A stretch of DNA of 62,431 nt from assembly GCA_011959285.1 (NCBI GenBank), contig BLLW01000016.1, forward strand, positions 1 to 62,431, given 5' to 3'. A program made the position numbers and the translations under genes. Below are positions 495-19,456 of this stretch, piece by piece (positions within the stretch are counted from its first letter, which is position 1; every line of letters begins with the position of its first letter). This DNA comes from Lachnospiraceae bacterium (GTDB lineage: Bacteria; Bacillota; Clostridia; Lachnospirales; Lachnospiraceae). The notes under the pieces were generated by a model. That model did not search any database and was not told where the DNA came from. It saw nothing but the letters and a program-made list of their open reading frames with translations.

Positions 495-518
495 ACTGTG
501 AAGATGTTTTACTACTCC
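491..518. other. attL: left attachment junction of the tail element
   Basis: Host sequence ends and element sequence begins at the shared tetranucleotide CTAC (493-496), which also occurs at the right junction (19449-19452). Just inside the element, 505-518 reads TGTTTTACTACTCC. This is the exact reverse complement of 19429-19442 at the other end. When the two element ends are joined these arms lie 9 bases either side of the dinucleotide AC (GT on the host gene strand), as expected for an attP of a large serine recombinase. The integrase stop codon (512-514) lies inside this arm. Confidence 0.8.
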
Positions 519-1882
519 AATTTTGTGATAAAATTAAAGCCGCTGATCTTGTGGGTTTCTTTGTCTATCTGGACATCCCTTATGGTACTTTTCCAGAAAG
601 CCTGCTTATGGGCTTTATCCAGCGTAAGATATAATTCCTGCCAGTTGCCGCTGAAAGCGTCCAGAAGGTCTTTGTAGAGCTCCATGGGCACACAGTTGCG
701 GTCACGGGTGTATTCGGAAAGTTTCTTATCTAAGATTTCGTATTGTTCATCATAATAGGCTTCCGTGATCCGTCCTTTCTGGAAGAGAAGATTGAGGCGG
801 TTCATTTCCCTGCGGACTGTTTCCGACTGATCCGGTTTCTGGGCTTTCTGCTTCCTGAACTCGATATCCGCCATTTCCCTTTCAAGACGGGCGGACACAT
901 GGGTCAGCATATATTCTTCAATCTTATATTCCGTAAAGTGGGCGCAGCTGTGCCGATTAAATTTGTTTCCGCAGCGGTACTTCACATAGATGCTCTCGCC
1001 GCCGTTTTTCAGCTTCTGTTTCTTGCGGTAGCCGGTGTAATTATTACCGCACCACGGGCACTTGATCAGGGAACTGAATATATATGGCTCATAGTTCCCG
1101 GTAGTGTAGACCTTGCTCACGGCAATCTGCCGGATTTTATTAAACTGCTCAAGGGATATGTACGGTTCGCAGTAATTCAGATTGCTGCCATCCTTGCCGG
1201 CATAGGTCTCATTCTTAAAGAAACGGTCTACCTGATTGTCAGAAGGGGCTGCGTCGCCGTATCTGCCATTTAAGTATTTGATGGTGGAACGGATGGAATA
1301 GCAGGAGAAATAGTGCTGGTAGGCATCCTCCACAATGTGGGAGACGGCTTCATCCTTGATCAGGCGATTGTCCCTTACCTTGTAGCCGTAGCAGGCGCAC
1401 CGTCCGCTGGTCACTTCCCCGATGGAACGCTTATAATCCAGAACCGCCTTGATACGCTCTGACGTGCGGTCACATTCCGCCTGATTGACGGAGAGCATGA
1501 TGTTGATGACCATCTGCCCGTTGGCGGTGGAAGAGTCATAGTTTTCAAATATGGTCTTCCAGTAACAGTTATGCGCTTTGAGGATTTCTTCTGTGATGTT
1601 GTAGTCCTTGATGTTGCGGAACCAGCGGTCCAGCTTGGTGACCAGGATCATATCAATCTTGTCTTTCTTTACGTCTTCTAAGAGCCGGAGAAGGTCCTTG
1701 CGGTGCTTCATGGGCTTTCGGGCGGAAATGCCTTCGTCGGCATAATAGCCTACAATTGTGTAGTCGTTTGCCTGCGCGAACTCCGTGAGCGCTTTCCGCT
1801 GGGCAGGGAGGGAAAGACCGTTCAGATTCTGTTCTTCTGTGCTGACACGGATGTAGATGGCACAGCGTAACACTTTTCCCAT
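512..1882 (-). CDS. Large serine recombinase (integrase of the tail element)
   Basis: This protein catalyses integration and excision by 2-bp staggered cuts through a 5'-phosphoserine link. The 456-residue protein starts at the ATG preceded by AGGAGG. A longer frame extends upstream but has no ribosome site. The resolvase domain holds the nucleophile in YIRVST (Ser14) and the DRWFRN arginines (about 85-90). The Recombinase domain follows (about 150-250), then a zinc ribbon with CPWC (275-278) and Cys304/Cys313, then a coiled-coil C-terminal region. This architecture is standard for large serine integrases of about 450-550 residues. The stop codon lies within the attP arm, as is common for such integrases. 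It probably uses its own promoter, since a terminator separates it from the repressor operon upstream. Confidence 0.95.
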   Translation of the reverse strand: MGKVLRCAIYIRVSTEEQNLNGLSLPAQRKALTEFAQANDYTIVGYYADEGISARKPMKHRKDLLRLLEDVKKDKIDMILVTKLDRWFRNIKDYNITEEILKAHNCYWKTIFENYDSSTANGQMVINIMLSVNQAECDRTSERIKAVLDYKRSIGEVTSGRCACYGYKVRDNRLIKDEAVSHIVEDAYQHYFSCYSIRSTIKYLNGRYGDAAPSDNQVDRFFKNETYAGKDGSNLNYCEPYISLEQFNKIRQIAVSKVYTTGNYEPYIFSSLIKCPWCGNNYTGYRKKQKLKNGGESIYVKYRCGNKFNRHSCAHFTEYKIEEYMLTHVSARLEREMADIEFRKQKAQKPDQSETVRREMNRLNLLFQKGRITEAYYDEQYEILDKKLSEYTRDRNCVPMELYKDLLDAFSGNWQELYLTLDKAHKQAFWKSTIRDVQIDKETHKISGFNFITKLE

Positions 1883-1954
1883 AACATCATCCTCCTTGTG
1901 TATATCATATCTGGTTTTGGGTATAAAAATGCTGATGTTCTTAAAAGATGCTTT

Positions 1955-2001
1955 GCAGTAAAAAGAACCCCCGGAAGTATTCGCCGTACTTTCGGGGGTT
2001 C
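1955..2001 (-). terminator. Rho-independent terminator after the repressor operon
   Basis: An almost perfect 15-bp stem (1965-1979 with 1987-2001, GC-rich, seven-base loop) is followed on the minus strand by a T-run (1956-1964). It lies downstream of the Uma2-like gene and upstream of the integrase, so it separates the leftward immunity operon from integrase transcription. Confidence 0.8.
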
Positions 2002-2122
2002 GTTCTCTTTGTGTCACATATGCTGCAACCCTATCTTCTTTTGCCTGCTGGAATTATAGCATATGCGGATATGGTTTACAATATTCTTTCGAGAGCAAAT
2101 AATCAAAGGAATCAAATTATTG

Positions 2123-2665
2123 CTATAGTAATTCAGAAATACAGACATTTAGGTCTTCATAAATGCATACAGGGATTGAGTCGTCAAAGCTATATTGGTT
2201 TGATGCCTGCTCATGTTCAAAATCAAAGACATTTACAGTGCGTGTCTTTGGGTTTACGATCCAGTATTCTCTGACGCCTGAAGACCGGTACTTAAAAAGT
2301 TTTAGCCCATAGTCTCTTTGTGCGTCAGAGGGGGATATTATTTCAATAATCCAGTCAGGCGCACCGCTGCATCCTTTGTCGGTCAGCTTATGCTTGTCGC
2401 ATATCACGGAAACATCCGGTTCAATGTAATTTCGGTCATCCTCATTCAAAAAAACTGCGAATGGGGCAGGATATACTTCACAATCGCCGTGTTTTGCATC
2501 AATGTAGTTCCCGATAATTTTAGTGAACTGGGAAACTAATTTTTGGTGGATTCGGGATGGCGGCGCCATCATATACATTTGTCCGTCAATCAGTTCAGCC
2601 CTTTGTCCATCAGGAAGGGCGTAGATATCTTCGATGGTATGAGATTTTTCTTGGTGCAGTGCCAT
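2123..2665 (-). CDS. Uma2-family (DUF820) restriction-endonuclease-like protein
   Basis: This 180-residue protein has the compact PD-(D/E)xK fold of the Uma2/DUF820 family. Features seen are the N-terminal YALPDGQRAELIDGQMYMM block with the family ExxxG pattern, PDVSVIC (the catalytic Asp strand), PDWIIEIISPS with the ExxSPS motif, then KLFKYRSSGVREYWIVNP. The start is preceded by AAGGAGG. It is the last gene of the leftward repressor operon. The cellular role of Uma2 proteins is not established, and nuclease activity is inferred from the fold. It could be cargo of the element or help in its excision or exclusion. It shows no frameshift or truncation. Confidence 0.88.
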   Translation of the reverse strand: MALHQEKSHTIEDIYALPDGQRAELIDGQMYMMAPPSRIHQKLVSQFTKIIGNYIDAKHGDCEVYPAPFAVFLNEDDRNYIEPDVSVICDKHKLTDKGCSGAPDWIIEIISPSDAQRDYGLKLFKYRSSGVREYWIVNPKTRTVNVFDFEHEQASNQYSFDDSIPVCIYEDLNVCISELL

Positions 2666-2707
2666 AGGACCTCCTTTCAGTTTTGGTTGTAGTATTGGGT
2701 TTTTATA

Positions 2708-2923
2708 TTAAATATTATGTGCCTCTGTTTCTATTTCTTGGACATCCTCTTTTTCAAAATCATGTTGCTTGATATGCGTTAACGCATGGTAATAAGACTT
2801 AAGTCGTTTTTCTTGTGATAGTTTCGCATTTAGAAATATCGTATAACTATCATCAGCATTTTTAACTAGTTGTTCTGGAATTTTAGTATCCATATCTAGA
2901 AGTCGTACATTAATTTCTTCCAT
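2708..2923 (-). CDS. Small ImmA/IrrE-like protein with degenerate metal motif
   Basis: This 71-residue protein resembles the short ImmA-type proteins next to phage and ICE repressors. The pattern is NADDSYTIFLNAKLS, then YYHALTHI, DFEKEDV and a final IETEAH. In active ImmA/IrrE proteases the helix reads HExxH. Here it reads HALTH, so the catalytic Glu is replaced. ImmA proteases cleave XRE-type repressors to induce the element, so a non-catalytic version might only bind the repressor, or the short family may act otherwise. It sits 51 bp downstream of the XRE gene and 42 bp upstream of the Uma2 gene, consistent with one operon. Confidence 0.6.
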   Translation of the reverse strand: MEEINVRLLDMDTKIPEQLVKNADDSYTIFLNAKLSQEKRLKSYYHALTHIKQHDFEKEDVQEIETEAHNI

Positions 2924-2974: not shown

Positions 2975-3367
2975 CTATAAATGAGTTCCGTTTTCTTGAT
3001 TGTATAAATTTTTCATAAATTCCATATGGGCTTTGAATCTTTCCGGCGGCATATTGCGTTTCATATCAAAAAGGGAGCGCATATCTTCATCGTCAAACAT
3101 TTCTTGGGCAAGTTTAGCAGTTTCTTCGTTGAGATAGTAGGCAGCATGCGGACTTGACATAGCTTTATCTGTTCTGCCTAAGAGATAGTCTGTATCTACA
3201 TGAAAGAAATCTGCAATTATTTCAAGGGTTTCAAAATCAGGTTCTCTAGCTCCGGTCTCATACATACCAATTCTGCTTCTGGAAATCCCAAGAATGTCAG
3301 CAAGTTCAGCCTGTGTATATCCGCTTGATAAACGTAGTTTTTTAAAAACGGTTTGAAAATCTCCCAT
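2975..3367 (-). CDS. XRE-family (Cro/CI-type) repressor of the element
   Basis: This is a 130-residue DNA-binding protein. An N-terminal helix-turn-helix (about residues 5-60) has the typical LRLSSGYTQAELADILGISRSRIGMYETGAREPDFETLE pattern (shown in parts: TQAELADILGIS, RSRIGMYETG), followed by FFHVDTDYLLGRTD. The C-terminal half is a likely dimerisation region. The start chosen follows GGAGGTAATAGTT. It is transcribed leftwards from the operator region and most likely represses both its own operon and the rightward operon. Its binding sites are probably the four GTCAC-N5-GTGAY palindromes between 3393 and 3550. Confidence 0.9.
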   Translation of the reverse strand: MGDFQTVFKKLRLSSGYTQAELADILGISRSRIGMYETGAREPDFETLEIIADFFHVDTDYLLGRTDKAMSSPHAAYYLNEETAKLAQEMFDDEDMRSLFDMKRNMPPERFKAHMEFMKNLYNQENGTHL

Positions 3368-3392
3368 AACTATTACCTCCATATACATAGAA

Positions 3393-3650: not shown

Positions 3651-3797
3651 ATGTCGGAATTTGATATGGAAGTAACAGATGAACGCTTTGAGTATATGAA
3701 GAATCTTCTTGTAAGACTGTATGCCGATCAAATTGGAATGGAAGTTCAAAATATCAGAGTCAGACCTGTAAATGAAACAAAAGAGGAACCGGTATGA
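3651..3797 (+). CDS. Small protein of unknown function, first gene of the rightward operon
   Basis: This is a 48-residue acidic protein starting MSEFDMEVTDERFEYMKNLL and ending ETKEEPV. An AGAGAGGTGGTG ribosome site lies just upstream, and 21 bp separate it from the sigma-like gene. I do not recognise a family. Position and size resemble short regulatory peptides of prophage early operons. Small phage proteins of this type are often Cro-like or excisionase-like, but no helix-turn-helix is evident here. Confidence 0.6.
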   Translation: MSEFDMEVTDERFEYMKNLLVRLYADQIGMEVQNIRVRPVNETKEEPV

Positions 3798-3818: not shown

Positions 3819-4265
3819 ATGAAAGATAAGCGTGAAGAAAATAAACTGGAAGGACATGAGCAGCCTACAGAAATAGAACTTAAAAAGGAATACTTAAGAG
3901 AATATGAGAAGGCGGTCCGCCAGATGGAGCGCAGCGAACTTAAAATGCAGGAGATACGTTTAAACAAAATATGTCCCTCTGTAATCATTGACGGAATGCC
4001 TCATGCATCAAATCATAAAGACTTATCAGGGTACGCTGCGCTGATTGATCAGGAAGAAAAAAGATATATGGAATATAGATATCAGAGAATCAAAAAGTGC
4101 AAGGAGATAACAGACAGAATAGAACTGCTTGAGGATGAAGACGAAAAGGATATTCTGATGTATAGATACATAAGACTCATGAAATGGGAGGATATCTGTA
4201 TGAAGATAGGACTTAGCTGGAAGCAGGCGCATAGAATACATACAAGGGCGCTGGCAAATTTTTAG
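3819..4265 (+). CDS. Sigma-70 region 4-like late transcription activator (DUF1492/ArpU/RinA/Xpf class)
   Basis: This 148-residue protein is charged and helical at the N-terminus. Its C-terminal helix-turn-helix resembles sigma factor region 4: LMYRYIRLMKWEDICMKIG, then LSWKQAHRIHTRAL (about residues 112-145). Proteins of this kind (DUF1492, ArpU, RinA, and Xpf in PBSX) switch on late structural genes of phages and phage-tail particles. It sits immediately before the tail operon and downstream of the repressed early promoter, so repressor loss should lead first to this protein and then to tail genes. A weak GAAAGGAC ribosome site precedes the ATG. Confidence 0.8.
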   Translation: MKDKREENKLEGHEQPTEIELKKEYLREYEKAVRQMERSELKMQEIRLNKICPSVIIDGMPHASNHKDLSGYAALIDQEEKRYMEYRYQRIKKCKEITDRIELLEDEDEKDILMYRYIRLMKWEDICMKIGLSWKQAHRIHTRALANF

Positions 4266-4290
4266 CAAAACCAATTAAAAAAATGAAAGA

Positions 4291-4325
4291 TGACATAGAA
4301 TGACACACAAGACCTATGATATAGT
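4291..4325 (+). promoter_or_regulatory. Candidate late promoter of the tail operon
   Basis: Two copies of TGACA (4291-4295 and 4301-4305) precede TATGATATAG (4315-4324) in an AT-rich gap between the sigma-like activator and the tail genes. The 18-bp distance from the first TGACA to TATGAT is suitable for a promoter. Placement just after the activator gene fits the target of that protein. This is inference from position and motif only. Confidence 0.4.
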
Positions 4326-4373
4326 GTAATCAGTTAAAAAAGAGATAACCCAATATTCCTCTAAGATATTTTG

Positions 4374-4407
4374 AAAATACCTGGTCATGTATATGGCTGG
4401 GTATTTT
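4374..4407 (+). terminator. Strong hairpin before the tail operon (terminator or antitermination site)
   Basis: A 15-bp stem including G-T pairs (4374-4388 with 4393-4407, 4-base loop) begins with AAAA and ends in TTTTT. The T-run is partly within the stem, so it may terminate early transcripts, or act as a late antitermination or processing site. It lies between the candidate late promoter and the first tail gene. Confidence 0.5.
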
Positions 4408-4527
4408 TATATGCATAATTGCAAAGAGGTAACTTGGGGAAATCTGAAGGGAGGCGAAAAAAATGGGATAGAATACAGGGCGCAGGTATATAGGAATGGA
4501 AAAGTACGTAAGGAGGTGTATGGATGA
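4387..4527 (+). CDS. Possible small protein, translationally coupled to tail terminator gene
   Basis: This frame of 46 codons ends in ATGA, which overlaps the start of the next tail gene, an arrangement typical of coupled phage genes. The longest version would start inside the 4374-4407 hairpin, so ATG at 4411 (38 residues, MHNCKEVTWGNLKGGEKNG) is a more likely start. Neither has a good ribosome site. No family is recognised. It may be a remnant or a leader peptide. Confidence 0.3.
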   Translation: MYMAGYFYMHNCKEVTWGNLKGGEKNGIEYRAQVYRNGKVRKEVYG

Positions 4528-4985
4528 TAGGTGAGATTGTGGATGCAGTAGGTCTTGCCCTGAAGGAAGCATTTGGGAATAATTATAAGGTTTATACGGA
4601 AGAAACAGGGAAGGGTATGGATGCCCCCTGTTTTTTTGTTTTTTGCAGCGCCCCGAGAAATACCCGTATTTCCAACCAAAAGTATTTCCGGTCAAATACC
4701 TTCTGCATCCAGTATATTCCATCTACGGTAAATATCCGGGCAGAATGCAACGAGGTAATCGAGCGTCTGTTTGAGTGTCTGGAGTATATCAAGGTGGACT
4801 CTTTTTTACTCAGAGGAAGGAAGATGGAATCGGAGATCAAGGATGGCGTTTTGTATTTCTTTCTTAACTATGACTTTTTTGTTTATAAGAAAGAAGAAAC
4901 GGAAGCTATGGGAACGCTTACAAGGAGCATTGAAGTGAAAGGACAGGTGAATGATGGCTGTAAAGAAAAAAACTGCGGTGAATGA
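4524..4985 (+). CDS. Tail terminator-like protein (DUF6838-type)
   Basis: This 153-residue protein starts at the ATG following AAGGAGGTGT. The pattern (start IGEIVDAVGLALKEAF, YKVYTEE, a PCFFVF strand, then YIPSTVNIRAECNEV and ERLFECLEYIKV) matches the phage tail terminator/completion proteins of Firmicute myophages. These cap the sheath and tube. Its position, first before the sheath gene, matches that role. In a headless particle this protein would form the top of the tail. Function is inferred from family resemblance and position. Confidence 0.65.
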   Translation: MIGEIVDAVGLALKEAFGNNYKVYTEETGKGMDAPCFFVFCSAPRNTRISNQKYFRSNTFCIQYIPSTVNIRAECNEVIERLFECLEYIKVDSFLLRGRKMESEIKDGVLYFFLNYDFFVYKKEETEAMGTLTRSIEVKGQVNDGCKEKNCGE

Positions 4986-5149: not shown

Positions 5150-6451
5150 ATGGCATTAGGAGGAGGCACGTTCAGCGTGCAGAACAAGACAATCCCGGGA
5201 GCATATATCAATTTTGTTTCAGCGGCTTCCGCGGATATATCCTTATCAGGAAGGGGGATTGCAACAATGCCCCTTAATCTGGAATGGGGAGAGGAAGGCA
5301 AGGTCATAGAGGTGACCAGTGAGGACTTTAAAACCAACAGTCAGAAAATTTTTGGATATCATTATACACATCCGAAAATGAAGGGGCTGCGTGATTTGTT
5401 CAGAAATGTAGAGCTATTATATGCCTACAGACTCAACGGCGGTGGCATAAAGGCAGGAAATACATATGCCGAAGCAGTCTGCAGTGGTACCAGAGGAAAT
5501 GACCTGAAAATCATTATTCATAAGAATGTAGATGATGATACGTTGTTTGATGTGAAGACCATGCTTGATACGATGCTGGTGGACGAGCAGACTGTAAAGA
5601 CAGCAGCAGAGCTGCACACCAATGGATATGTGGCGTTCAAGGCAGACGCCGAACTTGCAGCGACAGCAGCGACGCCGCTTACTGGGGGGACAAACGGTGA
5701 GGCAGATGGTGCTTCTCACCAGGAGTATCTGGATAAGATCGAAGGCTATCGATTTAATGCCTTAGGCGTGGAAACGACAGAAGATACGGTTAAATCCTTA
5801 TATGCCGCCTTTACGGAGAGAATGCGCGAGGAGATGGGAGTCAAGTTCCAGACGGTACTGTATCAGAAGGCTGCTGATTATTATGGCGTTGTCAATGTGG
5901 CAAATAAAGCCGCAGATGGCGGCGAGGCGTCTTTGGTCTATTGGGTGACGGGAGTTATTGCAGGCTGCCAGGTAAACAAATCGAATCAGAACAGAATCTA
6001 TGACGGTGAGTTCAAGGTTGAGACGGAAGCAACCCAGTCTGAGCTGGCAAATGCGTTGAAGGAAGGAAAATTTATCTTCCATAGGGTAGGGAGCGCAGTG
6101 CGTGTGCTTGCAGATATCAACAGTATGGTGACACAGACACAGGATAAGGGACCGGTCTTTAAGGAGAACCAGACCGTCAGGGTGATCGATCAGATTGCAA
6201 ATGATATAGCAGTACTGTTTAATACCAAGTATCTTGGGGTCGTGCCTAACGACAATGCAGGAAGAGTGTCACTTTGGTCTGATATTGTGCAGCATCATAA
6301 AAAGCTGAGCGATATCCGCGCGATTGAAGACTTTGAGGATACGGATATCACAGTGTCCCAGGGTGATTCCAAGAAAGCGGTGGTGGTATCAGATGCGGTT
6401 ACTGTTGTGAATGCTATGGACAAATTGTATATGACCGTGACAGTGTCATAA
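5150..6451 (+). CDS. Contractile tail sheath protein (XkdK-like)
   Basis: This is the 433-residue sheath subunit, whose contraction drives the tube through the target envelope. Family marks are the N-terminal GGGTFSVQNKTIPGAYINFV, IATMPLNLEWG, the loop TPLTGGTNGEADGA (about 178-191), ESTTEDTVKSLYAAF-like block and the conserved C-terminal part (PVFKENQTVRVIDQIANDI and QGDSKKAVVV). Length is normal for XkdK/YqbK-type sheaths. A sheath plus tube without head genes is the defining pair of an R-type tailocin. AAAGGTGAAG precedes the ATG. Confidence 0.95.
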   Translation: MALGGGTFSVQNKTIPGAYINFVSAASADISLSGRGIATMPLNLEWGEEGKVIEVTSEDFKTNSQKIFGYHYTHPKMKGLRDLFRNVELLYAYRLNGGGIKAGNTYAEAVCSGTRGNDLKIIIHKNVDDDTLFDVKTMLDTMLVDEQTVKTAAELHTNGYVAFKADAELAATAATPLTGGTNGEADGASHQEYLDKIEGYRFNALGVETTEDTVKSLYAAFTERMREEMGVKFQTVLYQKAADYYGVVNVANKAADGGEASLVYWVTGVIAGCQVNKSNQNRIYDGEFKVETEATQSELANALKEGKFIFHRVGSAVRVLADINSMVTQTQDKGPVFKENQTVRVIDQIANDIAVLFNTKYLGVVPNDNAGRVSLWSDIVQHHKKLSDIRAIEDFEDTDITVSQGDSKKAVVVSDAVTVVNAMDKLYMTVTVS

Positions 6452-6467: not shown

Positions 6468-6950
6468 ATGTTGAGAAATGTTACGATGAATGCCAGCGAT
6501 ACCTTGAGTGCAGCGCTGGCAGAGTGCTATGCGACGATTAACGGAAGACGCTACAATTTCATGCAGGCAATTAATCTGGAGGCAAAATTTGACAAGACAA
6601 AGGTTAAGGTGCCTATCTTAGGAAAGACAGGAAAAGGAAACAAAGCAACCGGGTGGAGCGGTAGCGGAAGCGCCAAGTTCCACTTTAACACCAGTGTGTT
6701 CAGGCAGATGATGCTGGAATATAAGAATACGGGAAGAGATACCTATTTTGAGATGCAGATCACCAATGAGGATCCGACTACTGTCGTGGGAAGGCAGACA
6801 ATCGTTCTTATGGGATGCAATATTGACGGAGGCATTCTGGCTAAATTTGATGCCGATGGGGATTATCTGGAGGAAGAAATGAATTTCACTTTTGAAGACT
6901 TCTCCATGCCGGAGTCTTTTGCAGCAATGAACGGGTTTGTAACAAATTAA
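6468..6950 (+). CDS. Tail tube protein (XkdM-like)
   Basis: This 160-residue tube subunit forms the rigid inner cylinder that crosses the target membrane on contraction. The sequence has the XkdM pattern: ATINGRRYNFMQAINLEAK, the KVPILGKTGKGNKATGW loop, GSGSAKFHFNTSVFR, then PTTVVGRQTIVLMGCNIDGG and a final FTFEDFSMPESF. It follows the sheath by 16 nt and has a good AAGGAGGG ribosome site. Length is usual for the family. Confidence 0.93.
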   Translation: MLRNVTMNASDTLSAALAECYATINGRRYNFMQAINLEAKFDKTKVKVPILGKTGKGNKATGWSGSGSAKFHFNTSVFRQMMLEYKNTGRDTYFEMQITNEDPTTVVGRQTIVLMGCNIDGGILAKFDADGDYLEEEMNFTFEDFSMPESFAAMNGFVTN

Positions 6951-9815: not shown

Positions 9816-9816
9816 G

Positions 9817-10524: not shown

Positions 10525-10539
10525 GGGGGTGATTATATC

Positions 10540-11971: not shown

Positions 11972-11972
11972 G

Positions 11973-12377: not shown

Positions 12378-13576
12378 TGTTTGAAGAACTTACATATGAG
12401 GTGCTTTTAAAGAGAATGCTGGGACGAGTATCAAATAAATATGACAAACGGGAAGGTTCTGTAATCTGGGACACGCATTCCCCTACGGCAATAGAACTTA
12501 AGAATCTGTATATTGCGTTGGATTCTATTGTTCAGGAAGCTTATGGTGATACGGCAACAAGGGAATTTCTGATTATGCGGTGCAAGGAGAGGGGAATCGT
12601 GCCGTATCCCGCAACGCATGCCGTATTGAAAGGCGAGTTCCTGCCGGATCATATTGATGTGACAGGAAAGCGATTTAACATTGGGCAGATTAATTATCTG
12701 GTCACAGACAGACTGCCGGAAGGCGGCTGCAAAGTGCAGTGTGAGGCAGCAGGTGAAGAGGGAAATCGATATTTAGGGACTATGACGCCTATTGAATATA
12801 TAAATGGGCTTGTGTCTGCGGAACTTACGGAACTTCTGATTCCGGGGGAGGATGAAGAAGGCACAGAGGAATTGCGGCAAAGATATTTTTCTTCTTTTGA
12901 TGTAAAGGCATTTGGCGGCAATGTAAAAGATTATCTGGAAAAGACGAATGCCATTCCAGGAGTGGGATGCACGAAGGTGACGAGAGTTTGGAATGGAGAT
13001 ATCCGACCGGCAGAAATGATCCCCCCCATGGAAGTAGAAACGTGGTATGGAAGCGCATCAGAATCATTGCCGGATTCGGTAAAGGAGTGGTTCACAGCTG
13101 TATATACGGCGGCAAAGGAAAAGAAACTGACGACAGGCGGCAGTGTCCTTCTGACCATTCTTAACTCTGCGTTCGATACCGCAAGCCAGGAGTTGGTTGA
13201 GACTGTGCAGAAAGCGATGGACCCCGAAGCGTACGGAGGGGAGGGGTACGGGCTTGCACCCATTGGTCATCTGGTCTCGGTAAAAAGCGCAGAAGGAGTG
13301 CAGATCACCGTAAAAATTAAGATAACCTTTGATCATGGCTATAACTGGACCAAATCGAGGAGCGCCATAGAAGATGCAATTAACGGCTATTTTTCAGAAC
13401 TCAGGCGGGAATGGGCAGATACAACTGCACTGGTGGTAAGAATCAGCCAGATTGAAACACGGATATTGGGGATTAAGGGAATTGTCGATGTGGAAGACAC
13501 CATGTTAAATGATCACGCCGAAAATTTGATTCTGGGAGCATTTGAGGTGCCTGTGTTTGGGGGTGTTTCAGAATGA
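12377..13576 (+). CDS. Baseplate J-like wedge protein (XkdT-like)
   Basis: This 399-residue wedge protein is the gp6/baseplate J equivalent. Marks are SVIWDTHSPTAIELKNLYI, the VPYPATHAVLKGEF region, GEEGNRYLGTM, EDEEGTEELRQRYF (EGxxxLRxR motif), and NAIPGVGCTKVTRVWNG. It starts on the stop of the DUF2634 gene and overlaps the next gene by 4 nt. It completes the baseplate ring that triggers sheath contraction. Confidence 0.93.
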   Translation: MFEELTYEVLLKRMLGRVSNKYDKREGSVIWDTHSPTAIELKNLYIALDSIVQEAYGDTATREFLIMRCKERGIVPYPATHAVLKGEFLPDHIDVTGKRFNIGQINYLVTDRLPEGGCKVQCEAAGEEGNRYLGTMTPIEYINGLVSAELTELLIPGEDEEGTEELRQRYFSSFDVKAFGGNVKDYLEKTNAIPGVGCTKVTRVWNGDIRPAEMIPPMEVETWYGSASESLPDSVKEWFTAVYTAAKEKKLTTGGSVLLTILNSAFDTASQELVETVQKAMDPEAYGGEGYGLAPIGHLVSVKSAEGVQITVKIKITFDHGYNWTKSRSAIEDAINGYFSELRREWADTTALVVRISQIETRILGIKGIVDVEDTMLNDHAENLILGAFEVPVFGGVSE

Positions 13577-14214
13577 ATAGACAAGTGGATCTGCTTTCCT
13601 ATCTGCCTCCTTTTCTACAAGAGTTTAAGGAGAACAGGGAGACGCTGAACGCAGAAAACCCAGAGTTTATTCTCGTGTGGAATGGAGCGGACAGGGTACT
13701 TAAAAATGAGTTCATAGAAACAGCCGATGAATATGGAATATCCCGGTTTGAACAGATTTTAAAGATATCGCCCTTAAAGACGGATACGCTGGAAATACGC
13801 CGCAGACGTGTGATGCTCCGCTGGCTTGACAGGATTCCCTATACACTTAGGGCTTTTTTAGAAAGACTTTCTGAGATATGCAAAGGCAGTGACTTTTCAG
13901 TGGTGAAAGAGTACTTAAAGTACAAGATAAGTATTACTGCCGATTTGGAGGAAGCAGGACAGACAGAGGAATTGGACAGGTTGATTGAGGAGATGATGCC
14001 CTGCAATATGGTGGTGATATCTGCCAACAAGATTCCCTGCGGCGCAGGAGAAAGCCTGTACACAGCAGGAACAGTCTGCTACGTGGAGCATATTGAAATC
14101 ATGGATGATGGCGTGCCGTCTGAGATTGCAAACTGTGAGGCTGCCTGCATCGCCTACGCAGCAGGCGCGGTAAGCCATATGGAACATATAGAAATTACAG
14201 AGGAAACAAGATAG
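13573..14214 (+). CDS. DUF2313 (YmfQ/XkdU-like) tail protein
   Basis: This 213-residue protein is the gpI/XkdU counterpart connecting the baseplate wedge to the fibres. It starts QVDLLSYLPPFLQEFKENRE, with RRRRVMLRWLDRIPYTLRAF in the middle. The C-terminal part carries two related segments (YTAGTVCYVEHIEIMDDG and YAAGAVSHMEHIEITEET), an internal repeat that appears to be a small extra beta unit not usual in the short family members. It overlaps the baseplate J gene by ATGA. Confidence 0.88.
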   Translation: MNRQVDLLSYLPPFLQEFKENRETLNAENPEFILVWNGADRVLKNEFIETADEYGISRFEQILKISPLKTDTLEIRRRRVMLRWLDRIPYTLRAFLERLSEICKGSDFSVVKEYLKYKISITADLEEAGQTEELDRLIEEMMPCNMVVISANKIPCGAGESLYTAGTVCYVEHIEIMDDGVPSEIANCEAACIAYAAGAVSHMEHIEITEETR

Positions 14215-14225
14215 GAGGAAAAGAA

Positions 14226-15473
14226 ATGGCAATATTTTCAAAACTAGTTACAACACAAAACGGGCGTGCGTTGATTGCACGGATGCTTGCAGCGGAAGAG
14301 AAGATTGTGTTTACAAAGGTACGTTCATCGGACACGGAATATACGCTGGAAGAACTGGAAAATCTGGAGGAACTTACGGGTATTAAACAGACCAACAGTG
14401 TTTCCAAGGTATCGCGCACAAATCCGGTTTCGGTAAAGGTAGAAACGGTATTTACAAACACAGAACTTACGGAAGGGTATCCTATGCGTACGGTTGCGTT
14501 GTATGCACAGGATGGTGACGGAGAGATTCTGTATGCAGCGGCAGTGGAAACTTCAGGAAATTGCTACATGCCCGCATTTGGGGGCACTACAGTCTCAGGC
14601 GCCTATATCCAGCTGGTCACTACGGTGAGCAATGCGGAAAATGTGACCCTTGAGGTGGATAACTCGGTGTTTGCCACTATAGGGGATATCAGGGATTTGC
14701 AGGAACAGATTGATTCTGTCAGTGGACTAGTGGGAGGAATGGCAGCGGCGATTAATACGAATGCGGAGAAGCTGGGACTAATGGAAAGAATTGGTTCTGA
14801 AGTATATCTACTTTACGCAAATGGCGGTGCAGAGTGTACAAATTCTCATGGTAAAAAATTATATTCAAATACGAGAAAGAACCTTCCTAATTTGAATAGT
14901 GTGACCTATTACCTGTATGTTTTAACTGGAAATGTAACACTTACAGGTCTGGGAAAAAGGAATGATATATATGAAGGTTTTGTTCGGGTTACGCTTGGGA
15001 TTGGATCATCGGTACGTTTTTCTCAAGACGTACCGATATGTAGAGGGGTTCCTGGGGAATATATATCAGCTCCAGTGAATATAGTGGCAGCAGAGGGACC
15101 ACCATTTGGCGAAGATGGGGAAATCAGCGTTTATGCACATCCTATATTATGCAAGCAAGATGAAAATAAGGAGCCGTATTTTGTGGAAGATGAAACTTTT
15201 CACATTTCCGTCGGTACGACTCTTTATATATATAAGTTAGGTGGTGTGCTTGCAAGCGTGCAAGGATCTGGAACTGTGCAGGGGGGCGGAACTTTGGGAA
15301 ATGATAATTATAATCTGCTAAAGAACAAGCCGTCTATCAATAACGTGACCCTGCAAGGAAATCTGACCACAGAACAATTAGGGATTGAGGTGGGTTCTGG
15401 CGTAACGGAAGAGATTACCTATGAAAAGGCACTGGCAATATTGAACGGAGAAGAGGAGGTATCAGAATCATGA
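14226..15473 (+). CDS. Tail collar/fibre protein with fibre-attachment domain
   Basis: This 415-residue fibre protein starts MAIFSKLVTTQNGRALIARM, the N-terminal domain of Gram-positive phage tail-collar fibres that dock on the baseplate. Residues about 1-150 form the attachment part, followed by a short coiled coil (about 160-185), then a beta-rich variable region and a glycine-rich stretch. The C-terminal NLLKNKPSINNVTLQGNLT motif is common in fibre stems. The stop overlaps the next gene. It probably carries or supports the receptor-binding proteins encoded downstream. Confidence 0.85.
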   Translation: MAIFSKLVTTQNGRALIARMLAAEEKIVFTKVRSSDTEYTLEELENLEELTGIKQTNSVSKVSRTNPVSVKVETVFTNTELTEGYPMRTVALYAQDGDGEILYAAAVETSGNCYMPAFGGTTVSGAYIQLVTTVSNAENVTLEVDNSVFATIGDIRDLQEQIDSVSGLVGGMAAAINTNAEKLGLMERIGSEVYLLYANGGAECTNSHGKKLYSNTRKNLPNLNSVTYYLYVLTGNVTLTGLGKRNDIYEGFVRVTLGIGSSVRFSQDVPICRGVPGEYISAPVNIVAAEGPPFGEDGEISVYAHPILCKQDENKEPYFVEDETFHISVGTTLYIYKLGGVLASVQGSGTVQGGGTLGNDNYNLLKNKPSINNVTLQGNLTTEQLGIEVGSGVTEEITYEKALAILNGEEEVSES

Positions 15474-16075
15474 TAGGTGATATTTTGAGAGCAATAAAGG
15501 ACTGGTGTACTGGAAGGTTCCAGCCTAAAGGGGACTATCTGACAGAAGTGCCGGAAACTTACGTGACTGCGTCCAGCTTAAATGAATCCTACTTAGGAGG
15601 TATAAGATTTGGCAGGGATGCGGATGGTAATCCTGGCTACTATAAGCATGATGAAGAGGCAGGTGCTGATACAGTAATCCCTTTTAATATTGGCAGTGAA
15701 GATGGGATTAAAGAAATTGATATTATATTCGGCGGCAACTCTTCAAGCAGCAGTAATGCTTCATCGGTGTCAAATTATTTTGGCACTTCTGCTTTGACTA
15801 ATAAAGAATATAAAAATTTATTAGCATTAGGCATCTATACAAGAGCAAATAGTTCTTACAATACGCCTGCCAATATGCTTGTAACAGACCAAAATAAAAT
15901 TGCAGAATCTATCGGGCAAAGCAGCTTGTCACTAGGTTCTTTTTTGATGGCAGGTTATCAATTGCTTGGAAGGACGGAACAGGGAAAACCGTTGCGATTT
16001 TATGTAAATACACAAATAACAAATCCAAATAGTAATTCTAAAAATTTGTATTTTGTATTACTAGGATTGAATTAG
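15470..16075 (+). CDS. Short fibre / receptor-binding protein candidate 1
   Basis: This 201-residue protein begins with an anchor segment (ILRAIKDWCTGRFQPKGDYLTEVPE) that is shared almost exactly with the next gene. The downstream part (YLGGIRFGRDADGNPGYYKHDEEAG, a serine-rich loop SSSSNASSVS and a beta-rich C-terminus) is unrelated to that gene. The ATGA overlap with the collar gene makes coupled translation likely. Receptor binding is inferred from position and the anchor-plus-variable layout. Confidence 0.65.
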   Translation: MIGDILRAIKDWCTGRFQPKGDYLTEVPETYVTASSLNESYLGGIRFGRDADGNPGYYKHDEEAGADTVIPFNIGSEDGIKEIDIIFGGNSSSSSNASSVSNYFGTSALTNKEYKNLLALGIYTRANSSYNTPANMLVTDQNKIAESIGQSSLSLGSFLMAGYQLLGRTEQGKPLRFYVNTQITNPNSNSKNLYFVLLGLN

Positions 16076-16161
16076 AGGATAAAAATAAGTCGGATGCCTA
16101 TTGCATAGTGCTTGAGACAGATAATTGTAAATAAGGAATAAAAGGAACAAGGAGTAGAAGC

Positions 16162-17052
16162 ATGAAAAGTGATGTTTTAAAAGCAATAAAAGATTGGGGA
16201 ATCGGAAAATTCCAGCCTAAGGGAAACTATTTGACAGAAATACCAGCATCTATTGCTGATTTTAATCCCCATAACTACTTTTCATTTAGCGGAGGAAAAG
16301 AGATTCAATCTGGCGGAGATTTAGATCATATGACCGAAATCGGAAATTACTATTGCGCTCTTAACAGTACTGTGAGCACTCTTTTAAACTGTCCGGTTTC
16401 AAGGGCATTCATAATGAAGATTTTTAAAGGAACTGGAAACTTATATCTGACGCAAATGATTCGCTGTTACAATGGGGAAATTGTATATCGATATCAAAAT
16501 ATAAACAATCAATGGCAGGCATGGGAGCATTTATATGAACCGATGAAAGCAGCAGATGCAAGTACCGCAGGAAAAGAAGGTCTTGTGCCGGCACCAGATG
16601 CAGGAAAGCAAAACGCCTATTTACGAGGAGACGGCACATGGGTTACACCATCAATAACATTGGCAGGAACAGTGGAAGGCATACCGTTAGACCAGACCAT
16701 GGGAAAACAGCTTAAGGATGCGCTTGATTTGCAAAATACTAATATAAACATTCGCTTTGGTAATTACCTTGAGAAAAGCTATATCTTTGGCGGAAGGACA
16801 TACGCAAGCCGTAATCAGGATCAGCCTAGATTGGCGGGCAGGTTTATTAGTTTACCTCCTCAATGGGCAAACACTGACGTCAATAATTACTTCGTGTCGG
16901 TGTCGATTCAAGGCGAAGCTGATACGATACTAGATTATTTTACGCAGAAAATCACAGGTGGCTTTAACGTATTTTTTCGCTACAGGGATGGTCACAATTT
17001 TGAAGAACAATATGCTGTATGGTTTGATTACACAGTGTTGATCAATCATTGA
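16162..17052 (+). CDS. Fibre / receptor-binding protein candidate 2 with pyocin-knob-like domain
   Basis: This 296-residue protein has the same anchor (VLKAIKDWGIGKFQPKGNYLTEIPA) as the preceding gene. Residues about 45-130 resemble the pyocin knob/tail-fibre head domain, with IGNYYCALNSTVSTL, LTQMIRCYNGEIVYRYQN and NNQWQAWEHLYEP. A typical fibre linker follows (AYLRGDGTWVTPS) and then a distinct beta-rich C-terminal domain. It has its own AAGGAG ribosome site after an 86-bp gap. It is the most likely determinant of killing spectrum. Confidence 0.75.
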   Translation: MKSDVLKAIKDWGIGKFQPKGNYLTEIPASIADFNPHNYFSFSGGKEIQSGGDLDHMTEIGNYYCALNSTVSTLLNCPVSRAFIMKIFKGTGNLYLTQMIRCYNGEIVYRYQNINNQWQAWEHLYEPMKAADASTAGKEGLVPAPDAGKQNAYLRGDGTWVTPSITLAGTVEGIPLDQTMGKQLKDALDLQNTNINIRFGNYLEKSYIFGGRTYASRNQDQPRLAGRFISLPPQWANTDVNNYFVSVSIQGEADTILDYFTQKITGGFNVFFRYRDGHNFEEQYAVWFDYTVLINH

Positions 17053-17145
17053 TCCAGGCACTCTGTAAAAAATGCCATAACTGTAAACAGGAGCTGAAAG
17101 GCTCTTATTTTTATACCCTGAAAAGGGAGAAAGAGAGGAAAAACA

Positions 17146-17535
17146 ATGAGTACAACAAAATTAGTGCTGGCAGACAGCACACAGATCGAACTGCAGGGAG
17201 GCGCTGCACTGGGCTATATGAAAGCCCAGTATGCAGACAAGGATGCGATGGTCGCGGACTGGAATAAGATCACCCCGGAGAACCTTGGAACTGTCCAGAT
17301 CATGACAGACGGCACCGTGACTGGGAACTATGAAGACTTAATCCTTGAATCAGAGACCTCCACACTGCAGCCGGACGGCTCCGTGGACACCGTATGGAAC
17401 ATCAGGGAAAAGACGGAACTGGAGAAGCTGCAGGAAGAGATCGCACAGATCAGGGAGGGGCAGGATATCCAGGACGGCGCCATAGCCGACCTCGGGGAAG
17501 CTGTGAACACCCTTGCGGAAGGAGGGGAGGCGTGA
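17146..17535 (+). CDS. Small tail-associated protein with C-terminal coiled coil
   Basis: This 129-residue protein begins STTKLVLADSTQIELQGGA, followed by a beta-rich part and a C-terminal coiled coil (EKLQEEIAQIREGQDIQDGAI). The type is common in prophages of Lachnospiraceae between fibre and holin genes, and is probably a fibre tip or a fibre-associated protein. Ribosome site AGAGAGG. Its base composition is more GC-rich than that of the fibre genes, as is also true of the lysis genes that follow, hinting at a modular origin. Confidence 0.6.
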   Translation: MSTTKLVLADSTQIELQGGAALGYMKAQYADKDAMVADWNKITPENLGTVQIMTDGTVTGNYEDLILESETSTLQPDGSVDTVWNIREKTELEKLQEEIAQIREGQDIQDGAIADLGEAVNTLAEGGEA

Positions 17536-17642
17536 TGGGAAGATTCTACGGTACAAAGATAAGGAACGGTGAGATGGCAATTGATGCCGTGCCGAAGCTG
17601 TGGAAGAAAGCCACTGAAAAGTGGCTGCAGGAAAATCCATAA
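17535..17642 (+). CDS. XkdX/CD1375-like short peptide
   Basis: This 35-residue peptide (MGRFYGTKIRNGEMAIDAV, then PKLWKKATEKWL) starts at an ATG overlapping the previous stop codon, after GGAGGGGAGG. It has the pattern of the very short CD1375/XkdX-like proteins found just before holin genes. It belongs in the operon by coupling and spacing. Function is unknown. Confidence 0.65.
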   Translation: MGRFYGTKIRNGEMAIDAVPKLWKKATEKWLQENP

Positions 17643-17675
17643 GGTTGCCGAATCTGGGAAAGGAGGTACGGACCA

Positions 17676-17948
17676 ATGCCAGATAACAGCTTTGAAAGGG
17701 AAGTATTAGACCGTCTGATCAAGATAGAAGCAAAACTTGAGAGCTGGGACAACAGCAAGAAGCAGATTTATGACAACCAGCGTGAGATTATCCATCTGCA
17801 TGAACAGACGGAACAGCAGCAGAGGGACATCGACGAACTCCGGGACCGCAACCGGTGGATGGGGCGGACCACAGCCGGCGCTGCCATATCGGCGGCGGTA
17901 TCTGCAGTCATAGCGGCAGCGCTTGCCATACTGCAGGCAGCAGGCTGA
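17676..17948 (+). CDS. XhlA-like haemolysin/holin accessory protein
   Basis: This 90-residue protein has a long charged coiled coil (VLDRLIKIEAKLESWDN through QQQRDIDELRDRNRWM) and one C-terminal membrane helix (about 66-88, alanine-rich). That layout is the XhlA family, which in PBSX works with a holin in cell lysis. The start has AAGGAGGT upstream. It precedes a second holin-type gene. Confidence 0.82.
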   Translation: MPDNSFEREVLDRLIKIEAKLESWDNSKKQIYDNQREIIHLHEQTEQQQRDIDELRDRNRWMGRTTAGAAISAAVSAVIAAALAILQAAG

Positions 17949-18002
17949 AACATAGCAGGGTATCAATAAAAATCATCAATATAGAAAAGGAGAAAAAACA
18001 TT

Positions 18003-18209
18003 ATGAAGAACAGAGAGTATTGGGTCAGATGGGCAAAAGCGGCAGGTATGAGGGCAGCAAAGACGGTAGCGCAGACAGCAGTCGCCACGATCGGGACGGC
18101 AGCGGTGATAGGAGAAGTGAACTGGATGGCAGTGGGGTCGGCAGCCGCGCTTGCAGGGGTACTCAGCGTGCTCACATCAGTTGCAGGTCTTCCGGAAGTG
18201 GAGGGGTGA
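18003..18209 (+). CDS. Holin (phage r1t/LL-H type)
   Basis: This 68-residue protein has two hydrophobic helices (about 18-38 and 43-62), the NWMAVGSAAALAGVLSVLTS motif and the N-terminal REYWVRWAKAAGMRAAKT of the r1t-type holins. It would form membrane lesions that let the lysin reach the wall. It is preceded by AAAGGAG and followed 4 nt later by the lysin gene. Confidence 0.85.
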   Translation: MKNREYWVRWAKAAGMRAAKTVAQTAVATIGTAAVIGEVNWMAVGSAAALAGVLSVLTSVAGLPEVEG

Positions 18210-18213
18210 TATC

Positions 18214-19416
18214 ATGGTAGTGGGAATAAACTGCGGTCACACAAAGAGCGGCGCCGGTTATGGCGCCGTGGGCATCATCAAGGAATCAGAGCATACAAGG
18301 CTGGTAGGACAGGCTCTTATGAGCCTGCTCCGGTCAGCCGGCGTCACGGTAGTGGACTGTACCATAGACCAGGCAGACACCCGGAACGAATACCTCGCTG
18401 CCGCAGTAGCTCTGGCAAACCGGCAGGAACTGGACTGGTTCATCAGCATCCATTTCAACGCATCCGGAGAGCATAAAGGGCACGGCACAGAGGTCTTTAC
18501 TTACGAGGGCAGGCAGTATCAGGATGCCTTGGACGTATGCGCCAACCTGTCGGAACTTGGATTTACTAACCGTGGGGTGAAAGCCGGTACCGGCTTGTAT
18601 GTAATCAGGAAGACAAAAGCGAAATCCATGCTGATAGAAGTCTGCTTCTGCGACAATCAGCAGGATATAGACACGTATCAGGCGGCAGGCGGAGCGGAAG
18701 GGATTGCAAAGGCAATCTACAAGGGAATCTATCATCCTGTGGTACTTCCGTCTGTACAGACGCCGTCAGAGGACCATAATCCTACAAGGGAAGAGTTCCA
18801 TGCCTTTGTAGGCGGTATCGCCCGCAGGGACTGGCAGGACCATCATATCATGCTGCCCAGCGTGGTCATAGCACAAGCCAGTATAGAAAGCGCGATAGGA
18901 ACATCAGAGCTTGCACAGAATGCCAACGCACTATTCGGAATCAAGCTCAATGGCTGGACTGGCAGGAGCTATGTAAAGGACGCCACAGAACAGAACCCGG
19001 ACGGAAGCTACCGAGTGGATCAGAATGCACTGTGGAGGGCATATGACAGCTGGGAGCAGTCCATCCTTGACCACAATGCGTATATCGCTACGAGGAGTAC
19101 GGACGGCGGCAGGACCTTGCGGTATGGACCCGTAATCGGATGCGGTAACCATATCCTTGCATGCCAGTACCTGCAGCAGTGCGGATATGCCACATCCCAG
19201 ACCTATGCGGAGACATTAATCAATTATATTGAGAGATACAGTCTGCACCAGTATGATGAATTTGAACCGGAGCAGATCGCCCCGGAGGGATTCTTGTGGA
19301 TCGTGCAGGCAGGGGCATACAAGAGCCTTAACAATGCAAAGAAGCTGCAGCGTAGTCTTGAAAAACAGGGAGTCATTTCTTTAATCAATGCATACAGAAC
19401 TGAATCCCCAGAGTAA
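18214..19416 (+). CDS. Endolysin: amidase_3 plus glucosaminidase plus partial SPOR domain
   Basis: This 400-residue lysin releases the particles from the producer. The start at GGTGATATC-ATG is preferred over a longer frame running into the holin gene. Domain 1 (about 1-180) is a zinc N-acetylmuramoyl-L-alanine amidase, with GINCGHTKSG, ISIHFNASGEHKGHG and MLIEVCFCDN. Domain 2 (about 205-345) is a glucosaminidase-like domain, with IAQASIESAIGTSELAQNA and NALFGIKLNGWTGRS. The tail (about 355-395) begins like a SPOR repeat (WIVQAGAYKSLNNAKKL) but stops after about 40 residues, which is short for that domain. The gene ends 13 nt before the attR-side inverted arm. Confidence 0.9.
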   Translation: MVVGINCGHTKSGAGYGAVGIIKESEHTRLVGQALMSLLRSAGVTVVDCTIDQADTRNEYLAAAVALANRQELDWFISIHFNASGEHKGHGTEVFTYEGRQYQDALDVCANLSELGFTNRGVKAGTGLYVIRKTKAKSMLIEVCFCDNQQDIDTYQAAGGAEGIAKAIYKGIYHPVVLPSVQTPSEDHNPTREEFHAFVGGIARRDWQDHHIMLPSVVIAQASIESAIGTSELAQNANALFGIKLNGWTGRSYVKDATEQNPDGSYRVDQNALWRAYDSWEQSILDHNAYIATRSTDGGRTLRYGPVIGCGNHILACQYLQQCGYATSQTYAETLINYIERYSLHQYDEFEPEQIAPEGFLWIVQAGAYKSLNNAKKLQRSLEKQGVISLINAYRTESPE

Positions 19417-19428
19417 TCTTTCCTTAAA

Positions 19429-19456
19429 GGAGTAGTAAAACAACTACACTACAGTA
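19429..19456. other. attR: right attachment junction of the tail element
   Basis: GGAGTAGTAAAACA (19429-19442) is the inverted copy of the arm at 505-518. The shared CTAC follows at 19449-19452, after which the host gene resumes. Joined to attL the two arms are symmetric about AC (19451-19452, equal to 495-496). The host frame continues ACT-GT across the crossover and resumes A-GAA on the other side. Confidence 0.8.

Follow-up and report, generated by a model that had tools for sequence, protein, structure and literature searches.

The window, a 62,431-nucleotide stretch of a Lachnospiraceae gut bacterium (contig BLLW01000016.1), carries an element of 18,956 bp (497-19452) that interrupts the gene for an ABC-transporter binding protein (SBP). 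An earlier, sequence-only reading had placed the borders at 495-19450, correct within 2 bp. We scanned 24 chosen element ORFs against Pfam and 10 of those 24 against PHROGs; the ORF scan covered non-overlapping frames of at least 60 aa, plus one 48-aa ORF. The features, in window coordinates, are as follows.

65..445, minus strand: SBP gene, 3′ part; in frame with 19444-20100 once the host flanks are joined
493..518, no strand: attL, core CTAC (493-496) plus element arm (497-518), from sequence
512..1882, minus strand: large serine integrase, about 456 aa (PF00239, PF07508, PF13408; TP901-1 integrase domain match)
2123..2665, minus strand: Uma2-family protein, putative nuclease, accessory gene (PF05685, 4e-35)
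2708..2923, minus strand: ImmA/IrrE-like protein, 71 aa, HALTH instead of HExxH (PF06114, weak, below cut-off)
2975..3388, minus strand: Cro/CI-type HTH repressor (PF01381)
3651..3797, plus strand: 48-aa protein linked to the integrase family, candidate recombination directionality factor (inferred)
3819..4265, plus strand: ArpU/sigma-like late activator (PF07374, phrog_36, phrog_248)
4290..4408, plus strand: promoter-like block (4290-4331) and terminator-like hairpin (4376-4408), conserved in the G020/G008 alignment, named by eye
4524..4985, plus strand: tail terminator (PF20765)
5150..6451, plus strand: tail sheath (PF04984, PF17482; solved sheath relatives 3hxl, 3lml)
6468..6950, plus strand: tail tube (PF09393; PBSX XkdM 2guj)
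7022..7453, plus strand: tail assembly chaperone, XkdN-like (PF08890)
7647..9815, plus strand: tape measure protein, 722 aa (PF20155, phrog_1068)
9814..13576, plus strand: LysM (9814), YqbQ-like (10540), DUF2577 (11516), gp25-like sheath initiator (11973), baseplate J (12377)
13573..17535, plus strand: gp48-like (13573), fibre (14226), fibre-like by place (15470 and 16162), small protein (17146)
17676..19416, plus strand: lysis genes, XhlA-like (17676-17948), holin (18003-18209), amidase/glucosaminidase (likely start ATG 18214)
19429..19452, no strand: attR, element arm (19429-19448) plus core CTAC (19449-19452), from sequence
19444..20100, minus strand: SBP gene, 5′ part (PF09084); the host portion starts at 19453

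The contractile tail module is complete, the element has its own lysis genes, and the tail and lysis frames are open. By its predicted anatomy it is an R-type tailocin. Pfam returned no match for four of the 24 ORFs, and the genes at 15470, 16162 and 17146 have none. The Uma2 gene also lies near the integrase in five other elements. The altered ImmA active site is no peculiarity of tailocins, as the phage contigs L124 and L142 share the His-Ala form.

No head, terminase, portal, packaging or replication family was matched among the scanned ORFs (24 with Pfam, 10 also with PHROGs); the element does not qualify as a complete temperate phage, which would have head, terminase, portal and replication genes. 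The 24 ORFs also lacked a match to any packaging determinant or helper-redirecting family, the marks of a phage satellite, and to relaxase or conjugation genes in Pfam, the marks of a conjugative or mobilizable element. As a control, head proteins of the related G008 phage used as queries recovered heads in sister phages. The cognate TerL of that phage had no match in the window's own genome (G000); it matched five of the 37 genus genomes, at full length in G008 only (the positive control), in pieces in G034 (67% and 46%) and weakly in G020, G004 and G018 (28-32%).

Element borders and the interrupted host gene

The core CTAC stands at both element ends (493-496 and 19449-19452), next to inverted arms, TGTTTTACTACTCC (505-518) and GGAGTAGTAAAACA (19429-19442). 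Joining the host flanks without the element restores a single SBP frame of 359 aa, assigned by Pfam to the NMT1/THI5-like SBPs (PF09084), and the 3′ part (65..445) is 99% identical to the intact SBP of genome G035. The nearest host relative shows exactly this site without the element; in G035 the empty site reads GAATTCTACAGTAAAATCC. Resolvase, recombinase and zinc-ribbon domains, inverted att arms, a short core and a precise empty site together identify a large serine integrase element. The sequence-only reading had described clean att junctions flanking a headless contractile tail with an intact large serine integrase, and both descriptions hold: the first by the cores, arms and restored frame, the second by the Pfam and PHROGs matches and by an integrase dN/dS of 0.066 (below).

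Empty-site relatives, which that reading had proposed looking for, are common. In 23 of the 37 genus genomes the SBP gene runs uninterrupted through the insertion place; blastn over the seam showed this for 22 of them, and adjoining halves for G028. The blastn search covered 29 of the 37, and the remaining eight, the window's own excepted, were judged from another search.

Full sister phages and a second headless carrier

A prophage in G008 occupies the same SBP site, with 87% identity to the window element in the sheath and 92% in the integrase, and carries TerS, TerL, portal and capsid genes between the activator and the tail terminator. This head module follows the promoter-like/hairpin block that lies at 4290..4408 in the window. 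A further full phage, IMG/VR 3300010163_003583, has 83% sheath and 80% integrase identity. Both phages share the integrase kind and tail order of the window element, and G008 also shares the late promoter/hairpin block and SBP site; unlike the window element, both possess head, packaging and early genes and a tape measure of 855-873 aa. The window element corresponds to such a phage from which the head and early modules are missing. Integrase and sheath identities covary over 10 element pairs (Spearman 0.95; the pairs are not independent). At the same site, L011/G007 is a remnant with fragments of such a full phage. Two stops flagged in the G008 tail-terminator stretch lie past the end of the G008 gene.

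The window element also lacks one gene that separates tube from chaperone, and about 150 aa of tape measure, both present in the closest phages; its tape measure has 722 aa, against 855-882 aa in four close phages. The short form is confined to the window's clade and is not a general mark of headless loci, as lengths range over 717-885 aa in nine headless loci and 713-915 aa in nine phages.

The same headless element is found at the same SBP site, with a shared junction layout, in a second species (G020). The G020 copy gave no match to the Uma2 and XhlA genes. In the tail tree the window, G020 and the metagenome contig L013 form a 100/99 clade adjoining the G008 phage, the headless form thus being common to two host species and one metagenome contig. 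Between window and G020, dN/dS was 0.004-0.28 for 21 of 22 element genes and 0.29 for fib3; the fibre (14226) and 16162 genes gave the highest values between the two tailocins. The integrase had a dN/dS of 0.066 and an intact frame in both species. These ratios indicate that the tail was kept by selection after head loss. A stop flagged in the G020 amidase stretch lies before the likely amidase start.

The heads were not lost in a fresh deletion, since another species has the same headless element and its tail genes and integrase are strongly constrained by purifying selection. The sequence-only reading had noted that a full-length relative whose head genes were simply deleted in this strain would count against it: there are indeed full-length phages that share this integrase and tail, one of them at the same site, but the loss is not private to the strain. 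Its suggestion of recent mobility did not survive the comparison of carriers. Median dS was 0.66 for the element (20 genes) and 0.82 for the host (22 genes; p=0.003), having left out the integrase and fib3 from 22 element genes and two of 24 host genes (no match; poor paralogue). In this one carrier pair, element divergence is not well below that of the host. Divergence between the copies nearly equals that between their hosts, which points to long residence, with no sign of recent spread; the slightly lower element value would also allow transfer after the hosts split. Integrase dS (0.315) is half that of the tail, so the integrase may have been replaced by recombination.

In the host tree the empty-site genome G035 is nested in the tailocin clade (the program dropped G033 and G036), a topology that fits two gains equally well as one gain and one loss. 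The shared SBP site is no proof of vertical descent, as this integrase family sat at the SBP gene in every case where the host side could be seen (10 of 11 and nine of nine loci). L013 matches the window at 98.9% identity over 8.7 kb, but close to the end of this contig the integrase changes sequence within the catalytic domain, and its second half has no close match in the 37 genus genomes (best 43-44%). We set aside retargeting by an integrase domain swap, as a chimeric assembly would be indistinguishable from a real swap.

The integrase, its 48-aa partner and the tail family

The 48-aa ORF is present in all 12 distinct elements with an integrase of at least 68% identity and enough element-side sequence, and in none of 80 loci of at least 8 kb without the integrase. 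At integrases of 46-58% identity it is clear in one of eight loci of at least 8 kb (L200) and weak in the shorter L199. The protein had no family annotation above cut-off; its linkage with the integrase makes it a candidate excision factor. A joined attP with the expected arms lies at 1716-1762 of the phage contig L008 (77% integrase), showing that phages of this integrase occur with a joined site. A looser pattern found it at this one of 202 loci and nowhere in IMG/VR or the 37 genus genomes; our first pattern, which found none in the same three sets, was too strict and missed L008. No joined attP of the tailocin itself was seen in these sets. The SBP-targeting integrase serves cargos from phages down to islets of ~2.5-4 kb, which have an open integrase frame and little else and occupy this gene in three further genera. 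We dropped the idea that the integrase of islet L200 is broken: a stop was flagged, yet the frame is open across the 444-residue match. Integrase, att arms and 48-aa protein together look like a kept excision cassette, with which the element can probably still leave.

A 40-locus tree of this Lachnospiraceae tail family places at least seven changes of the headless state on well-supported branches. Of 45 loci submitted, L020, L022 and L129 (short contigs, some head genes) and L126 and L130 (no upstream sequence) did not enter; those never submitted include L016, L125, L131, L138-L140 and more distant family matches. A large serine recombinase adjoins six of the 14 headless rows (four lineages), so integrase-bearing tailocins recur; three headless loci besides the window's carry one. 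The tyrosine recombinase of G416, which sits between the fibre and amidase genes, was not counted as a boundary integrase.

Origin of the element and known systems

We think it likely that the window element is a domesticated R-type tailocin, derived from a temperate contractile-tail phage of Lachnospiraceae, whose integrase is directed to one fixed SBP site. The ancestor would have shed its early/replication and head/packaging modules before, or somewhat after, the hosts of the window and G020 separated. We infer that the repressor keeps the element silent and that induction, assumed to follow DNA damage, would express a short early operon encoding the 48-aa protein and the ArpU-like activator; the activator would switch on the tail and lysis genes, and cell lysis would free tails able to kill relatives that bear a suitable receptor. 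Excision, with the 48-aa protein as its putative factor, would restore the SBP gene. Inheritance would be mainly vertical, with occasional precise loss or transfer via general routes. More speculatively, and with rather low odds of holding in full, Lachnospiraceae could harbour a recurrent type of integrase-bearing tailocin: phage tails repeatedly stripped of heads, which retain a functioning cassette of integrase, excision factor and att sites and cross strains as 'killing islands' by borrowed transfer, on a serine-integrase platform at one SBP gene that also bears phages and bare islets.

A functional tailocin might instead be locked in place, its excision unused and its integrase kept merely by border position, through the 'deletion shielding' proposed in PMC7744054, or by recombination with same-site phages. 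The low integrase dS relative to the tail (0.315 vs 0.66) and the lack of a joined attP of the window element favour this, as do eight other headless genomes of the tail family in which the search turned up no integrase at the boundary (contig ends limit G206 and G399). We nevertheless find it doubtful, if possible, given an integrase intact in both species at low dN/dS, two intact att arms, a retained 48-aa partner and an empty site nested within the carrier clade. That head genes were deleted from a dying prophage whose remainder decays without function is highly improbable: full prophages of the same kind and the phage-fragment remnant in L011/G007 would suit it, but not open tail and lysis frames, strong purifying selection across two species or a headless form shared by both and a metagenome contig.

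A closely related full phage from this genus, inserted at this attachment site, together with the kept integrase, would suit an element that makes its own tails, borrows heads and packaging from a G008-type helper and is transduced in particles. Terminase, connector and packaging genes were not found, however, the cognate TerL is absent from the window's genome, and the absence of the gene separating tube from chaperone and of ~150 aa of tape measure better fits a free tail, making such a satellite very unlikely indeed. Excision could also serve to switch the SBP gene on again, as exact frame restoration and the islets that persist in this gene in three further genera might suggest; with that gene uninterrupted in 23 of 37 genus genomes, and no sign of regulated excision seen (sequence could not show one), we consider this very unlikely.

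The domesticated tailocin is not a free-standing new class, since its tail and integrase also occur together in full phages. New here are the at least seven headless-state changes, the three other headless loci with serine recombinases, the shared SBP platform and the linked 48-aa protein. The family brings together phages and headless derivatives, with the same attachment site in the same genus and several separate headless lineages, which makes the prophage-to-tailocin transition directly testable, as well as the puzzle of integrase persistence in cut-down prophages raised in PMC7744054. For a serine integrase aimed at one fixed gene, the 48-aa protein offers a concrete excision-factor candidate.

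Diffocin of Clostridioides difficile and PBSX of Bacillus subtilis are, like the window element, Gram-positive contractile tails. Both loci are fixed. The word 'integrase' is absent from the diffocin paper (PMC4453579). The window tube matches PBSX XkdM and its sheath matches diffocin CD1363 weakly (1e-8), yet the tail is far nearer phage phiC2 (sheath 59%), and the element was therefore probably domesticated independently of both. According to one review, no Gram-positive R-type tailocins other than diffocins are widely recognised, and capsid genes appear conserved in the Gram-positive group (PMC10538166). The R-type tailocin prophages of solvent-producing clostridia it describes are also clostridial, with a contractile tail, a resolvase-type integrase and, in a number of strains, insertion in a host ABC transporter gene; they retain capsid genes and span about 40 kb, unlike the window element, which has no head module (PMC10538166). 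Rhizoviticin of Allorhizobium vitis likewise records a prophage-to-tailocin transition with head loss and full sister prophages, but has an F-type tail, a mere remnant of an integrase and, as reported, no identified att repeats (PMC10811719).

The closest precedent is BceTMilo of Burkholderia cenocepacia, a headless tailocin of about 23 kb with Int and a putative Xis (PMC5411513), already in print, and the suggestion of a wholly undescribed class is accordingly not borne out. It differs in its P2-like tail, Burkholderia host and tyrosine integrase, and its particles, killing and RecA-dependent induction have been demonstrated (PMC5411513). As in the window element, there is a repressor, a late activator, a contractile tail, lysis genes and an integrase, and BceTMilo too has a full sister phage, KL3, and a breakpoint at the border of the head and tail modules (PMC5411513).

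Borders and gene content of the element

The ABC-transporter binding-protein (SBP) gene (NMT1/THI5-like, PF09084) at the start of the window is split in two, with an element of 18,956 bp between its halves. Joining the host flanks yields a single open frame of 359 aa, and the empty site in G035, the closest host relative, reads GAATTCTACAGTAAAATCC. Together with the cores and arms listed here, these confirm the precise att junctions proposed in the sequence-only reading.

Junction features of the element, as read from the sequence (window coordinates)
493-496 and 19449-19452: core CTAC, at both junctions
505-518 and 19429-19442: inverted arms

The minus strand carries, in order, the integrase, a Uma2-family gene, an ImmA-like gene and the repressor. 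The plus strand opens with a 48-aa ORF (3651-3797), an ArpU-like activator, tail terminator, sheath, tube, chaperone and tape measure, and continues with hub and baseplate genes, fibres, XhlA, holin and amidase. Family searches of 24 chosen element ORFs gave zero matches to head, packaging or replication families, so the earlier description of a contractile tail with lysis genes, regulators and a serine integrase but no head genes holds. By its anatomy, the element is an R-type tailocin derived from a known kind of phage. The sheath is 59% identical to that of phage phiC2 and matches diffocin weakly, and PBSX XkdM is a match for the tube. Towards the window's right end (59775-60374) lies another serine recombinase, a short one of 199 aa with a resolvase domain.

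Kinship with full phages and age of the headless form

The sheath is present in four of the 37 genus genomes: the window's own, G020 (93%), G008 (87%) and G018 (53%). G020, a second species, has the same headless element at the same site, spread over two contigs. G008 has a full prophage whose tail is as in the window and whose right end is likewise at the SBP gene; its integrase (92% identity to the window's) is on a separate contig, adjoining the other SBP half (locus L003, equal in length to contig C49 of G008). Between activator and tail terminator this prophage carries TerS, TerL, portal, minor head, scaffold, capsid and connector genes, named from protein reading and position. A 35.4 kb IMG/VR contig holds head genes, tail (sheath 83%) and integrase (80%) together. 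The related full-length prophage envisaged earlier therefore exists, but head loss is not confined to this one strain, since G020 is headless too.

A promoter-like block and hairpin 3′ of the activator are common to the window, G020 and the G008 phage, followed by the head module in the phage and by the tail terminator in the two tailocins. In the closest phages (G008, L014, L015, L017-L019) a gene separates tube from chaperone; both tailocins lack it, and their tape measure is ~150 aa shorter. In L088 (14412-15123) this intervening gene looks, by eye, membrane-protein-like. A near-identical tailocin on metagenome contig L013 (IMG/VR 3300006138_000067) has an integrase whose sequence changes within the catalytic domain, close to the end of the contig (1-414), reflecting either a real swap or an assembly chimera.

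A family search found a sheath match in 38 of 397 genomes; loci were fetched from 18 of the 37 matching genomes besides the window, plus genus and IMG/VR loci. The tree of sheath, tube and chaperone has 40 rows: 14 headless, one headless with early genes and 25 phages. Rows were called phage when one or more head-side genes like those of G008 lay just upstream of the tail, and headless if tblastn gave no head genes and upstream ORFs led to regulators, then host genes, integrase or contig end; the headless calls for L094, L095, L013, L143 and L021 are constrained by contig ends. The window groups with L013 and G020 in a clade (support 100/99) nested in phages. The headless label requires nine changes on the tree, at least seven of them on starred branches, and a single change occurs in 0% of 200 bootstrap trees. 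We infer that the direction of change is loss of heads. In L132 (1-7498), the tail directly follows early genes of a phage (replication-associated, PcfJ-like) and no head genes intervene; this locus may be an intermediate stage in the loss of heads. Two tailocins of different branches (L093 7993-9125; L101 17833-18944) both lie near an rdgB-like and phosphodiesterase-like gene pair (named by eye).

Between the window and G020, dN/dS is 0.004-0.28 in 21 of 22 element genes (integrase, 0.066) and 0.29 in the divergent fibre-like gene fib3. The 20 element genes compared have a median dS of 0.66, against 0.82 for 22 host genes nearby (p = 0.003). Taken together, these values place the headless tail under selection since about the split of the two hosts; transfer somewhat after that split is possible. 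There is no evidence of recent spread, and the recent mobility suggested earlier is not supported. The selection signature points to an element that is old and functional, and it is probably still excisable. Integrase dS (0.315) is below that of the rest of the element, which may reflect replacement by recombination. The host tree (three flanking genes, 15 rows) places ((window, G035), G020) beside (G008, G010), with empty sites in G035 and G010; by counting, one old gain with precise loss and two gains account for this equally well.

The integrase platform and its candidate excision factor

Headless tails with an adjoining large serine recombinase occur in the window clade, L143, L021 and L133. 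The L143 enzyme is of the window's kind (71%; sheath 64%), and those of L021 and L133 differ from it. No boundary integrase of resolvase or tyrosine type was found at eight other headless genomes (G206 and G399 constrained by contig ends). One tailocin without a boundary integrase (G416; L110 3461-4444) has a gene for a tyrosine recombinase placed between its fibre and amidase genes, possibly for fibre switching. Across five elements, integrase and sheath identity correlate (Spearman 0.95; 10 pairs, not independent), so integrase and tail most likely came to the tailocin together.

Ten of 11 integrase relatives in genome contigs adjoin the same SBP gene. In the eleventh (L008, a MAG contig; integrase 77%), the integrase is followed by a joined attP (1716-1762) and then phage lysis and tail genes, a layout suggestive of a phage genome in free or circular form. 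A family sample (E up to 1e-100) gave integrases of 46-59% identity in nine other genomes from eight genera, and all nine loci fetched are at this SBP gene. Cargo ranges from phage to small islets in three other genera.

Islets with an open SBP-targeting integrase frame
L202, 62-4117: ~4 kb, integrase and Uma2-like genes
L197, 16990-19787: ~2.8 kb, little beyond the integrase
L200, 17268-19791: ~2.5 kb, little beyond the integrase; a second, 40%-identical integrase directly outside

Among the 37 genus genomes, the SBP site is empty in 23 (22 by blastn, G028 by adjoining halves) and filled in five (G000, the window's own, G020, G008, G007 and G031); eight have the gene cut at a second place, and G013 has no close orthologue. 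Three insertions at this second place, near SBP residue 170 (L171 in G002, L172 in G014, L175 in G001), involve a different family of serine recombinases (about 624-634 aa) and different cargo, including a 13-kb metabolic-looking gene set in G014. A Uma2-family gene adjoins or lies near the SBP-targeting integrase in six elements of differing cargo: the window (2123-2665), L006, L012, L194, L199 and L202.

Elements with this kind of integrase repeatedly carry the 48-aa ORF. Among loci of at least 8 kb, it occurs in 12 of the 15 rows whose integrase is at least 68% identical (two contigs counted twice), in one of eight with 46-58% (L200) and in none of 80 without such an integrase. The three misses (L003, L007, L008) have just 279, 1631 and 348 bases on the integrase's early-gene side; once the window and L143 are included, all 12 distinct elements for which enough sequence exists carry it. 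Because the profile was made from search hits among the loci then in the set, misses and zeros are more informative than scores. No family matches the ORF above cut-off; the best Pfam hit, DUF7602, falls short of it. Small proteins such as SprB and TP901-1 Orf7 act as directionality factors for serine integrases, and the 48-aa protein is a candidate excision factor.

Comparison with known systems

Three features stand above the ordinary: the many separate headless lineages that a single tail family contains, the repeated presence of serine integrases next to headless tails, and an integrase platform that comes with a candidate excision factor. Among the matches listed from open PMC papers, none describes a Lachnospiraceae headless tailocin with a serine integrase. 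Clostridial tailocin prophages with a resolvase, some of them inserted in an ABC transporter gene, retain capsid genes (PMC10538166), and incomplete prophages are enriched in tail-fibre and integrase genes, for which satellites or border shielding are proposed as reasons (PMC7744054). The nearest precedent is BceTMilo, which is likewise headless, carries Int and a putative Xis, and has a full sister phage (PMC5411513).
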